This document shows positions 3,845 to 62,539 of a stretch of 64,000 nucleotides of DNA, in pieces. Source of the DNA: Burkholderia multivorans ATCC BAA-247 (GTDB lineage Bacteria; Pseudomonadota; Gammaproteobacteria; Burkholderiales; Burkholderiaceae); assembly GCF_000959525.1 (NCBI RefSeq), contig NZ_CP009832.1, positions 1,674,001-1,738,000 on the forward strand. Direction: 5' to 3'. The translations under genes were made by a program, and so were the position numbers. How positions within the stretch are numbered: the first letter of the stretch is position 1; the number at the start of each line of letters is the position of its first letter. The notes beneath the pieces were generated by a model. It saw only the letters and a program-made list of their open reading frames with translations, ran no database searches and was not told the origin of the DNA.

Positions 3845-3873
3845 TTGGCGTTTGCGCCAAAAATCGCTATAAT
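3845..3873 (+). promoter_or_regulatory. Promoter of the rimP-nusA-infB operon
   Basis: TTGGCG at 3845-3850, a 17-bp spacer, and a perfect TATAAT at 3868-3873. It is the best sigma-70 match in the 386-bp gap before rimP and gives a leader of about 180 nt. The leader contains a terminator-like hairpin (3934-3958). Confidence 0.7.
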
Positions 3874-3933
3874 CGCGGAGTCGCTGGGCGTACGGATTCG
3901 ATGTGCGGCTCAGGTGCGACCACCGGTAAGAAG

Positions 3934-3958
3934 ATGGGCGTTCCGCCCATTTTTTTTT
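3934..3958 (+). terminator. Leader terminator (attenuator candidate) before rimP-nusA
   Basis: Seven-pair stem ATGGGCG/CGCCCAT with a three-base loop, directly followed by a run of nine T (3950-3958). It has all features of an intrinsic terminator but lies between the operon promoter and rimP, with no coding sequence before it. It could attenuate the nusA operon, or end an independent small RNA of about 75-80 nt. Rest of the gap (3959-4060) holds a GC-rich inverted repeat around 4008-4044 and the ribosome site GAGAGGA. Confidence 0.65.
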
Positions 3959-17693: not shown

Positions 17694-17959
17694 GCATGGT
17701 CGCGCAGCGCGTGCGACGACGCGCTGCAAAACACTGTTTCAACCCTGCGCGGCAATGCGGCAAAACCCCGTCGCACGGCGCTTTCGTGCGTGTTCCGCCG
17801 TGAACTTCGGTATCGGTTCTGTGATATGCTGCGCGCACGCAAGTTTTAGGTCCTTCCCAGCAGACTTGATTCGCGCAATCCGCTAAACGGTCAGGCCGTG
17901 TCGCGGAAGGTTGAGTAACCCGCTATTTCTCGAGAAGCTCGAAGAAAGGTGAGCGTAAA

Positions 17960-46189: not shown

Positions 46190-46469
46190 TGAGGTGCGGC
46201 AGGAGCCTGCGTCAGAGAATATGTTGTGCGTGTGTGGCGTGGTCGTCACAAATCTGTTTGGCGGGATTCTACCCTGTTCGATCGGGAAGCGCCCAGTCGC
46301 GATTGTGTCGAACCGTAACCCACTATAGACGCTAACGCGCATTTGCGCGATGCGGCCAAATGGCCAACGTCAGCTGCCGCGCATATCCGCGGACGAATAT
46401 GCGCGTCCGCGTGCGTTTCGGCAGAATTTTCCGGTCTTTCCCGCGCAAAACGGACGATTCCCGCCGTCT

Positions 46470-60481: not shown

Positions 60482-60627
60482 GCGCGAGCGAGCGCGTGTG
60501 TCAGCCTAGGGAAATCCCGGTTGCTGGGAGGGAGGCGGGAGGTCGGGCAGTGTTTTGGGCGTTTAAGGCCGTTGTCCGGAAGAGGGGACGCATCGCATCT
60601 CTTGTCGCTTTCTGCGCCGCAAATGAA

Positions 60628-60654
60628 AAAAGGCCGGCATAAAGCCGACCTTTT
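60628..60654 (-). terminator. Final terminator of the tRNA-Leu 1 array
   Basis: Stem AAAAGG..CCTTTT with GCCGGC/GTCGGC-type inner pairs on the minus strand, followed by U-rich sequence. Same hairpin family as the spacers of the array, and the last one before the ROK region. The rest of 60482-60627 holds no feature I can support. Confidence 0.6.
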
Positions 60655-60664
60655 CGAAAACAGA

Positions 60665-60772
60665 TGGTGCCCAGGAGAGAGCTCGGTCACACGAGCGCGA
60701 CCCCGGCTGCGCTTGCGAGCCGCAGCCTTTCGAGTCCTCGCGCAAAGCGCGCAGGCACTTTGCTTCCTTGGC
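60665..60772 (-). ncRNA. tRNA-like RNA, unit C (distal, degenerate)
   Basis: 108 nt, same plan as units A and B. The acceptor stem has one mismatch (GCCAAGG 5' strand), the long stem has one mismatch and one G.U pair, and the interior hairpin 2 keeps seven pairs. In hairpin 1 a change in one arm gives a U.G pair on the minus-strand RNA, i.e. pairing is kept on that strand only. Ends in ACCA. Confidence 0.55.
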
Positions 60773-60780
60773 TCAAAATG

Positions 60781-60809
60781 AAAAAGGCCGGCATGAAGCC
60801 GACCTTTTT
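60781..60809 (-). terminator. Spacer hairpin 1 of the array
   Basis: AAAAAGG/CCTTTTT stem with inner GTCGGC/GCCGGC pairing that includes a G.U pair on the minus strand but a C-A mismatch on the plus strand. Partial terminator or processing site between tRNA-like units. Confidence 0.55.
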
Positions 60810-60817
60810 AATACAGA

Positions 60818-60924
60818 TGGTGCCCAGGAGAGGACTCGGTCACGCAAGCGCGACCCCGGCTGCGCTTGCAAGCGCAGCCTTTCGAGTCCTCACGCAAAGC
60901 GCGCAGGCGCTTTGCTTCCTGGGC
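60818..60924 (-). ncRNA. tRNA-like RNA, unit B
   Basis: 107 nt. On the minus strand it begins GCCCAGGA (pairs with TCCTGGGC before the 3' ACCA), then hairpin GCAAAGCGC/GCGCTTTGC, the stem GAGGACTCG/CGAGTCCTC enclosing the hairpins GGCTGCGCTT/AAGCGCAGCC and GGTCGCGC/GCGTGACC. Identical in plan to unit A. The last 21 nt equal the 3' end of tRNA-Leu(CAG). Confidence 0.65.
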
Positions 60925-60932
60925 TGAAAATG

Positions 60933-60961
60933 AAAAAGGCCGGCATGAAGCCGACCTTTTT
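60933..60961 (-). terminator. Spacer hairpin 2 of the array
   Basis: Same AAAAAGG/CCTTTTT hairpin as at 60781, with a G.U pair on the minus strand only. Lies between unit A and unit B. Confidence 0.55.
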
Positions 60962-60968
60962 AAAACAG

Positions 60969-61075
60969 TGGTGCCCAGGAGAGGACTCGGTCACGCAAGC
61001 GCGACCCCGGCTGCGCTTGCAAGCGCAGCCTTTCGAGTCCTCACGCAAAGCGCGCAGGCGCTTTGCTTCCTGGGC
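60969..61075 (-). ncRNA. tRNA-like RNA, unit A (nearest to tRNA-Leu)
   Basis: 107 nt on the minus strand, downstream of tRNA-Leu. Nucleotides 1-8 (GCCCAGGA) pair with 96-103 (TCCTGGGC); 10-18/23-31 form a nine-pair hairpin with a CUGC loop; 34-42/87-95 form a nine-pair stem; 46-55/58-67 a ten-pair hairpin; 70-77/80-87 an imperfect hairpin. 104-107 are ACCA. Only the acceptor 5' strand (7 nt) and the last 21 nt come from tRNA-Leu; D-arm, anticodon arm and T-loop are absent. Function unknown. Confidence 0.7.
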
Positions 61076-61083
61076 TGAAAATG

Positions 61084-61112
61084 AAAAAGGCCGGCATGAA
61101 GCCGACCTTTTT
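61084..61112 (-). terminator. Hairpin directly behind tRNA-Leu 1
   Basis: AAAAAGG/CCTTTTT stem with inner GTCGGC/GCCGGC pairing (G.U on the minus strand). First member of the spacer hairpins, seven nt after the tRNA CCA end; the stem's own U-run and the CAUUUUC after it give a weak intrinsic terminator. Confidence 0.6.
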
Positions 61113-61119
61113 AAAACAG

Positions 61120-61206
61120 TGGTGCCCAGGAGAGGACTCGAACCTCCACGGTGTTGCCACCGCTAGGACCTGAACCTAGTGCGTCTACCAATTCCGCCAC
61201 CTGGGC
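61120..61206 (-). tRNA. tRNA-Leu (anticodon CAG), copy 1
   Basis: 87 nt including encoded CCA. Acceptor GCCCAGG/CCTGGGC with discriminator A, D-arm with GGTAGACGC, anticodon stem CTAGG/CCTAG around loop TTCAGGT (CAG, decodes CUG), long variable arm (GGTGGCAACACC), and T-loop TTCGAGT. Leu type II tRNA. A consensus promoter lies just upstream. Followed on the minus strand by the array of tRNA-like units. Confidence 0.98.
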
Positions 61207-61238: not shown

Positions 61239-61266
61239 ATTGTAGCGTGTCCTTGAGGGCTGTCAA
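61239..61266 (-). promoter_or_regulatory. Promoter of tRNA-Leu copy 1
   Basis: On the minus strand TTGACA (61266-61261), 16 bp, TACAAT (61244-61239), about 30 bp before the tRNA 5' end. Near consensus. The adjoining GC-rich block toward the tRNA resembles a discriminator. Confidence 0.85.
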
Positions 61267-62179: not shown

Positions 62180-62201
62180 TTTTTTCGTGCCGGAAATGAA
62201 G

Positions 62202-62227
62202 AAAGGTCGGCTGAAAGCCGACCTTTT
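62202..62227. terminator. Bidirectional terminator, wrbA / array 2
   Basis: Perfect stem AAAGGTCGGCT/AGCCGACCTTT with two-base loop, T-run on both sides. It serves wrbA on the plus strand and the second tRNA-Leu transcript on the minus strand. Here the inner pairing is perfect on both strands, unlike the spacer hairpins. Confidence 0.85.
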
Positions 62228-62237
62228 CGAAAACAGA

Positions 62238-62344
62238 TGGTGCCCGGGAGAGGACTCGGTCACGCGAGCGCGACCCCGGCTGCGCTTGCAAGCGCAGCCT
62301 TTCGAGTCCTCACGCAAAGCGCGCAGGCGCTTTGCTTCCTGGGC
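62238..62344 (-). ncRNA. tRNA-like RNA, unit D (behind tRNA-Leu 2)
   Basis: 107 nt, differing from units A and B at only a few positions (for example one acceptor change giving an A-C mismatch and one loop change). Same four-stem plan and ACCA 3' end. It is the only unit in the second array, 45 nt from tRNA-Leu copy 2. Confidence 0.65.
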
Positions 62345-62352
62345 TCAAAATG

Positions 62353-62382
62353 AAAAAGGCCGGCATGAAGCCGACCTTTTTT
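62353..62382 (-). terminator. Hairpin directly behind tRNA-Leu 2
   Basis: AAAAAGG/CCTTTTT hairpin, same family as at 61084, between tRNA-Leu copy 2 and unit D; six T on the plus side. Inner G.U pair on the minus strand only. Confidence 0.55.
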
Positions 62383-62389
62383 AAAACAG

Positions 62390-62476
62390 TGGTGCCCAGG
62401 AGAGGACTCGAACCTCCACGGTGTTGCCACCGCTAGGACCTGAACCTAGTGCGTCTACCAATTCCGCCACCTGGGC
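62390..62476 (-). tRNA. tRNA-Leu (anticodon CAG), copy 2
   Basis: 87 nt, identical in sequence to the copy at 61120-61206, with encoded CCA. Same strand, own promoter. Confidence 0.98.
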
Positions 62477-62511: not shown

Positions 62512-62539
62512 ATTCTAGCGTGTCTGAAACGTCTGTCAA
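62512..62539 (-). promoter_or_regulatory. Promoter of tRNA-Leu copy 2
   Basis: On the minus strand TTGACA (62539-62534), 16 bp, TAGAAT (62517-62512). Same spacing as copy 1. The sequence between promoter and tRNA is similar but not identical to copy 1 (GAAAGACCGCTATT is shared), which shows that both upstream regions are duplicated and have diverged. Confidence 0.85.

Follow-up and report, generated by a model that had tools for sequence, protein, structure and literature searches.

What are the repeated units that stand behind a tRNA-Leu(CAG) gene in Burkholderia multivorans ATCC BAA-247: tRNA-like RNAs, some other kind of structured RNA, or a DNA element that has settled at the end of a tRNA? 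To approach this question, we analysed the surrounding stretch of 64,000 nucleotides (the window). The array is present at 60665..61112 on the strand of the tRNA, as the initial annotation had it, and consists of three tandem units, A, B and C, on the minus strand, with start-to-start distances of 152 and 151 nt. A fourth copy, unit D, lies 1269 nt further on behind a second tRNA-Leu(CAG) gene (Table 1). In units A and B the final 21 nt of the tRNA, down to the ACCA, are repeated without change; the same had been claimed for C, but there only 16 of the last 18 nt agree, compared with 18 in A and 17 in D. An intrinsic terminator of the same kind, not recorded in the annotation, follows every unit from A to D. 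The terminator between the first tRNA-Leu and unit A was missed by a strict terminator scan because its T run sits within the stem. In a consensus scan, promoter-like sites in the tRNA/array region were confined to the two tRNA-Leu genes, with none inside the array.

Table 1. Features of the tRNA-Leu(CAG) region of the window, with the evidence on which each row rests.
Feature	Position	Strand	Evidence
tRNA-Leu(CAG), first copy; units A-C repeat its last 21 nt	61120..61206	-	ARAGORN; Rfam RF00005 53.7 bits
Sigma-70-like promoter, first tRNA-Leu (TTGACA-16-TACAAT)	61239..61266	-	Consensus match only
Intrinsic terminator, tRNA-Leu/unit A interval (AAAAAGGTCGGC..GCCGGCCTTTTT)	61084..61112	-	Read off sequence + repeat comparison
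Unit A	60969..61075	-	Fold z -7.75; covariation
Unit A, acceptor-like 5' strand	61068-61075	-	Fold
Unit A, hairpin H1	61045-61066	-	Fold
Unit A, closing 5' strand	61034-61042	-	Fold
Unit A, hairpin H2	61009-61030	-	Fold
Unit A, hairpin H3	60989-61006	-	Fold
Unit A, closing/acceptor 3' strand + ACCA	60969-60988	-	Fold
Unit A, 21-nt copy of tRNA-Leu 3' end, 0 mismatches	60969..60989	-	Read off sequence
Terminator 3' of unit A	60933..60961	-	Sequence + repeats
Unit B, letters identical to A	60818..60924	-	Repeats + fold
Terminator 3' of unit B	60781..60809	-	Sequence + repeats
Unit C, decayed; mismatches in acceptor, closing stem and H2	60665..60772	-	z -1.35; covariance model 102.1 bits
Terminator 3' of unit C	60627..60654	-	Sequence + repeats
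tRNA-Leu(CAG), second copy	62390..62476	-	ARAGORN; Rfam RF00005
Sigma-70-like promoter, second tRNA-Leu	62512..62539	-	Consensus match only
Terminator 3' of second tRNA-Leu	62354..62382	-	Sequence + repeats
Unit D, single copy behind second tRNA-Leu; one acceptor mismatch	62238..62344	-	Repeats + fold
Terminator 3' of unit D	62199..62227	-	Sequence, repeats, terminator scan

Neither ARAGORN nor RF00005 scored any of the units as a tRNA, the two tRNA-Leu genes being the only ones detected in the window, and a scan of the window against Rfam at gathering scores gave no match in the units. Its other matches above gathering score were an h2cR sRNA (46211-46345, +), a Bp1_162 sRNA (3861-3957, -) and a sucA RNA motif (17873-17955, +). 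A coding reading of the array was set aside: open reading frames extend across it on both strands but were taken as a by-product of the repeat.

Unit A folds into five helices: an acceptor of 8 pairs, H1 of 9, a closing stem of 8 (9 if the G-C pair 61034/60989 is counted in), H2 of 9 and H3 of 7, one of them a G-U. At -73.5 kcal/mol this fold is far below the mean of its shuffles (-45.7, n=200; z -7.75), none of the 200 being as stable, and it has no T loop, D arm or anticodon arm. The initial annotation had described four long stems in place of the rest of the tRNA. Units A, B and D are indeed folded, but into five helices, the unlisted one being H3; and while the counts given for the acceptor and H1 of unit A were correct, the closing stem reaches the 9 pairs claimed only with the additional G-C, and the other hairpin has 9 pairs, not 10. 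Freedom from mismatches holds for A and equally for B, whose letters are the same across the 107 nt folded, but not for D, with one mismatch in its acceptor (z -5.83), nor for the decayed unit C, which gave z -1.35 with 20 of 200 shuffles as stable. The five-helix fold is common to A, B and D.

Covariation across relatives, put forward beforehand as a check on the annotation, was clearly positive in three alignments, none of the 500 shuffles scoring as high in any of them. The plain MAFFT alignment A3 (26 distinct rows) scored 0.319 against 0.115 when shuffled, with changes on both sides at 19 of 41 pairs; A5 (100 distinct rows chosen by pattern) scored 0.465 against 0.142, and A6 (80 distinct diverse rows, model-fitted) 0.562 against 0.167. 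A4-A6 were fitted to models; A3 was not, yet gave the same result. The H2 pairs that never vary in A5 are a selection effect, as the pattern that chose the loci fixes part of H2. On A6, H1 is 98.2% paired with both-side changes at 9/9 pairs, and H2 97.2% paired with such changes at all nine; pairing is 89.0% in the closing stem, 76.4% in the acceptor and 72.9% in H3, the last value being partly due to an offset of one between Leu- and Asp-type H3. The helices covary strongly, and the claim of a real, structured and conserved element is borne out. The loops are conserved on A6 too, with CTGC in H1 in 54/80 rows and TGCA in H2 in 62/80. GGA, the motif read by CsrA-type proteins, occurs in no hairpin loop of the window units; we discarded the view that the family lacks CsrA-type GGA loops when 32 of the 80 distinct A6 units (a raw count; e.g. 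L026, L041, L043) turned out to carry GGA in the apical portion of H3.

Does this pairing act in RNA or in DNA? Two Watson-Crick pairs of the closing stem are replaced by tandem G.A/G.A in 8/80 A6 rows, which points to RNA. Counted on the tRNA strand, there are more G-U than A-C cells in H3 (63 to 13), H1 (7 to 2) and the closing stem (30 to 19), as an RNA from this strand should have, whereas H2 (2 to 7) and the acceptor (42 to 51) show no such excess. A single column pair supplies about three quarters of the H3 G-U cells (47/63). The share of G-U among pairs is 1.0% in H1 and 0.3% in H2, versus 4.7% in 83 tRNA terminators of the same loci. Since G-U is scarce in H1 and H2 and its excess patchy, correction of DNA palindromes could yield part of the covariation, though it would not account for the conserved loops or the tandem G.A. 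Finally, in two loci (L043, L095) a unit is flanked on either side by a tRNA-Asp gene and separated from the next tRNA by 16 and 18 nt; as no TTTT occurs in these intervals, the unit there is most likely within the tRNA transcript.

Used as a DNA query, the unit matched 32 of 61 genomes, the window's own included, many of the matches being the tRNA end alone; it also disclosed a fifth Leu-type copy in the window's own genome. The interior occurs behind tRNA-Asp as well, there with the tRNA-Asp end replacing that of tRNA-Leu. One full and one truncated Asp-type unit stand behind tRNA-Asp genes in the window's genome (G000:C3:2134983-2135091 and 2276260-2276412; L041, L047). Scoring was limited to 10-12 candidates per genome (9 in the order-wide scan with R1), which makes the following absence counts soft: covariance model R1 found units in 22 of 399 Burkholderiales genomes and 15 of 158 genera, a patchy occurrence, and the broader model R3 in 1/369 genomes of a class sample (the window's own) and 4/299 of a phylum sample, all of them Burkholderiales, with none outside that order in either sample. 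A tRNA stood in front at 28 of 29 loci examined (L060-L088), seven tRNA species being represented. A pattern scan of named genomes gave at least 119 stretches in at least 80 loci. Among the matches listed, these were Burkholderiales by title, one being titled only Betaproteobacteria, and the genera included Burkholderia, Paraburkholderia, Trinickia, Pandoraea, Cupriavidus, Ralstonia, Herbaspirillum, Massilia, Pseudoduganella, Herminiimonas and Undibacterium. A unit also follows tRNA-Leu in Cupriavidus metallidurans CH34 (L056). Phages gave no match to the units, and among plasmids three Cupriavidus records matched. Tandem arrays at L074 and L068 have partial end units. An unusual array lies downstream of tRNA-Ser(GGA) at L080, where an H2-bearing stretch is tandemly repeated with a longer insert.

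To quantify the tie to tRNA genes we used 158 non-redundant units, obtained by collapsing the best 66 of 86 rows of A4 and all 104 rows of A5; the 20 weakest A4 rows, some on the opposite strand, were left out. A whole tRNA lies upstream on the same strand in 142/158, at a distance of 5-608 nt, mostly 28-51. In three more (L107, L156, L093) the tRNA is cut by the edge of the locus, and these were excluded from the counts of copied ends. Nine tRNA species precede the 142 units: Leu(CAG) 55, Asp(GTC) 44, Glu(TTC) 14, Ser(CGA) 9, Ser(GGA) 8, Ser(GCT) 7, Ser(TGA) 2, Arg(CCG) 2 and Thr(TGT) 1. The 13 units without a tRNA comprise six with at most 121 nt of upstream DNA, five preceded by a tRNA 3'-end fragment (by eye) and two with neither (L071, L119:7120). 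Beyond the fragment, the five (L098, L105, L141, L119:962, L097) have unrelated DNA further upstream, and the fragments are probably island attachment ends, left where the tRNA gene was entered. At L119, 6249-7223, a solitary unit adjoins a phage-type integrase gene (PF00589, PF22022) in a locus where no tRNA was found; this unit may have travelled with an element. Island insertion was also considered for the third Leu unit of the window's genome (L004/L228) and rejected, since inspection by eye of the ORFs that reach 130 aa and overlap the upper 9 kb of its 18 kb revealed no recombinase.

The last 21 nt are identical to those of the unit's own tRNA in 64/142 units and differ by at most three mismatches in 88/142; exact copies occur behind Leu, Asp, Glu, three Ser species and Arg. 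The remaining 54/142, with more than three mismatches, have kept the interior and lost the tRNA end or let it decay. The acceptor-like 5' strand is more restricted. Only behind tRNA-Leu is it the rule (52/55) that the 5' part of the unit forms at least 8 pairs with the end of its own tRNA; such a duplex is found in 12/44 Asp, 2/14 Glu, 11/26 Ser, 0/2 Arg and 0/1 Thr units. Leu units pair over a mean of 8.16 with their own tRNA versus 5.41 with other isotypes, and all 142 units over 7.11 versus 6.03. The own tRNA gave the longest duplex of all isotypes in 34/142 units, 30 of them Leu. We therefore dropped the idea that the 5' strand tracks the own tRNA in every unit, the own mean lying below that of the others for Glu, Ser(CGA), Arg and Thr. 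In one Ser unit (L070) the 5' strand pairs with the CCA as well. The fold of the initial annotation, more tRNA-like than that of the rtT repeats, is thus not general, nor is a tRNA-like acceptor with a free CCA supported as a general reading, and the family is better defined by what it copies than by a tRNA fold. On a tree of the interiors (71 columns), poorly resolved as it is, units group by tRNA species (24 changes versus 49 when shuffled), which suggests mostly vertical descent, with old associations and occasional changes of partner. The same tree was too poorly resolved to date jumps between tRNAs, and a reading of the spread from phylogeny was abandoned.

How well, then, do the possible explanations fit? 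The Leu units, with an 8-pair acceptor, a closing stem adjacent to it on the same 3' strand and a 3' ACCA, would fit a minimal tRNA, as the initial annotation proposed, which RNase P might cut and on which leucyl-tRNA synthetase or the CCA enzyme might act. We regard this as very improbable for the family, in which most Asp and Glu units have no acceptor 5' strand, the CCA can be paired (L070), the fold of unit A lacks a T loop as well as D and anticodon arms, and ARAGORN and RF00005 do not recognise the window units. The units could also be decoys, their additional copies of the tRNA 3' end drawing island or phage integrases away from the tRNA gene; the copied part is the usual attachment site of tRNA integrases, and these loci seem to be entered by islands. 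That the units exist for this purpose is highly improbable: it leaves the covarying interior unexplained, 54 of 142 units are without a good copy, in the five fragment loci it is the tRNA itself and not the unit that seems to have been entered, and no recombinase was seen by eye among the ORFs of at least 130 aa overlapping 9-18 kb of the third Leu locus (L228). A slim chance remains with another proposal, in which unit and tRNA form a strand-exchange pair: behind tRNA-Leu, for example, a unit carries the copied tRNA 3' end together with its complement, and the nascent transcript could there fold as tRNA plus unit or swap partners, so that read-through would report on or correct the folding or dosage of the tRNA. 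If that were true, the required match to the local tRNA would account for the layout shared by this family and RtT, whose models do not recognise each other.

The most substantial competitor, though still an unlikely one, is a small DNA element, mobile or self-amplifying, that would insert at the 3' ends of tRNAs and duplicate the tRNA end. Its hairpins would be the ends of the element, its spread the work of a structure-reading recombinase or of slippage, and the covariation a product of template-switch correction of imperfect palindromes. Several observations would suit such an element, including the tandem arrays with partial end units, the very low G-U content of H1 and H2, the patchy occurrence, the unit next to an integrase gene at L119, and the five loci where only a tRNA 3' fragment precedes the unit, as at island attachment sites. 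Furthermore, RtT-like sequences are reported within BIME repeats of enterobacteria in an excerpt of PMC2965389, and a survey of REP sequences counts rttR as REP-bearing in the part of PMC12306157 seen. It is harder for this explanation to accommodate loops and stem lengths that are conserved across families, tandem G.A and G-U in the closing and H3 helices, and the grouping by tRNA species; and ordinary islands entering tRNA genes explain the integrase and the attachment fragments equally well.

Altogether, the units are most likely structured RNAs made by read-through of tRNA operons, as far as the sequences can tell. We consider it likely that they form a family of tRNA-linked repeats within Burkholderiales, in which every member is a structured RNA gene joined to the end of a tRNA operon, and that they work in the following way. 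RNA polymerase would initiate at the tRNA promoter, and some transcripts would pass the first terminator into the unit and end at the next one; in some genera no terminator stands between tRNA and unit, and elsewhere the unit is mostly behind one, like the rrB repeat of E. coli. Such read-through would place the unit in an RNA that is predicted to fold into a closed structure, its closing helix formed by the copied 3' strand of the T stem and a complementary 5' strand, with H2 and H3 at the tip and H1 at the foot; behind tRNA-Leu and in some other units the acceptor would be paired as well. Where the copied end is intact, the enzymes of tRNA 3' maturation may release an RNA with a tRNA-like 3' end, a step that cannot be general because 54/142 units differ from the tRNA at more than 3 of 21 nt. 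The released RNA would then act in trans, its conserved H1 and H2 loops probably serving as the binding site of a protein, and its amount would thereby follow tRNA synthesis and growth rate. Of this account, the analysis shows the position of the units, the copied end, the structure and its covariation, the tie to tRNA genes, and the inclusion between two tRNA genes without a T run in two loci, whereas transcription by read-through, release by tRNA enzymes and action in trans are inferred. Counting against the account are the scarce G-U of H1 and H2, the patchiness (22/399) and unit C, which folds no better than its shuffles.

No description of these units in Burkholderiales was recognised among the top-ranking literature matches, and the available extracts of three RNA studies on Burkholderia cenocepacia make no mention of tRNA tails. 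A second family that has a different interior and obeys the same rule, copying the end of the preceding tRNA, makes it less likely that the layout is the accident of one lineage. This rests on more than ten named Burkholderiales genera (among the matches listed) and nine tRNA species, and the covariance models offer a handle on which parts are under selection.

The nearest known systems are the tRNA-linked repeats (TLRs) of E. coli K-12 (Egan and Landy 1978; Rudd 1999, as cited in PMC8144298). According to PMC8144298, TLRs lie right behind a tRNA or rRNA gene, have 18-19 bp at their 3' end identical to the 3' end of that gene, occur one to five per locus, in some cases between dual terminators, and have no known function, an early claim of a role in amino-acid starvation having been withdrawn. 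The units have the same layout: they stand behind a tRNA gene, have a copied end, and number three at the first tRNA-Leu and one at the second, within the range of one to five. The initial annotation was right to compare them with the repeats behind tyrT and rtT RNA. Their hosts are Leu, Asp, Glu, Ser, Arg and Thr tRNAs, the search having covered tRNA genes only, whereas TLRs also follow rRNA. Those that do, rrA, rrB and rrF, lie behind rRNA operons between dual terminators, are read through and processed, and bind Hfq and CsrA (PMC8144298, in part). The RrA, RrB and RrF sRNAs follow 5S rRNA, bind CsrA in vitro and have a TLR layout like that of the units; the two terminators, the read-through and the processing are features described there for these sRNAs (same excerpt). 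The 3'ETS-leuZ of E. coli, like the units, derives from the 3' trailer of a tRNA operon; it is a small-RNA sponge made by RNase E, and the excerpt of PMC8144298 that describes it does not mention a copied tRNA end.

RtT (RF00391; rttR behind tyrV in E. coli) is, like these units, a tRNA tail repeat that is often tandem, and in several of its loci, read by eye, the copied tRNA 3' end has a complementary 5' strand. When tRNAs were swapped, the own tRNA ranked above every other isotype in 2/12 RtT cases, both tRNA-Gln. In ten of 12 RtT loci read, the end of a preceding tRNA-Tyr, -Gln or -Ser is copied, and the same is true of both tRNA-Tyr genes of E. coli. RF00391 matched 43 of 229 class genomes at E 0.001, 15 of them above the gathering score; Apart from E. 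coli, many of the sampled class genomes carry RtT, often as tandem copies (L216-L227). Northern signals have been reported for RtT RNAs in Actinobacillus pleuropneumoniae in PMC4986893, which places them upstream of tRNA genes and repeats the link to the stringent response, retracted according to PMC8144298. In the accessible part of an E. coli sRNA screen (PMC4606813), the row for RttR reads 97 +/- 9% with dashes in the other columns, which we take as no effect. RF00391 had no match in the window's genome and no RtT match up to E 3 in five test loci, and model R3 did not rise above background on RtT loci (best E 0.14). The two models thus do not recognise each other. The units differ from rttR, the TLR compared, in the interior and, unlike it, have an extra hairpin, H1, that splits the acceptor from the closing stem. 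The units are therefore a new family of a known kind: TLRs by layout, and new by sequence and structure.
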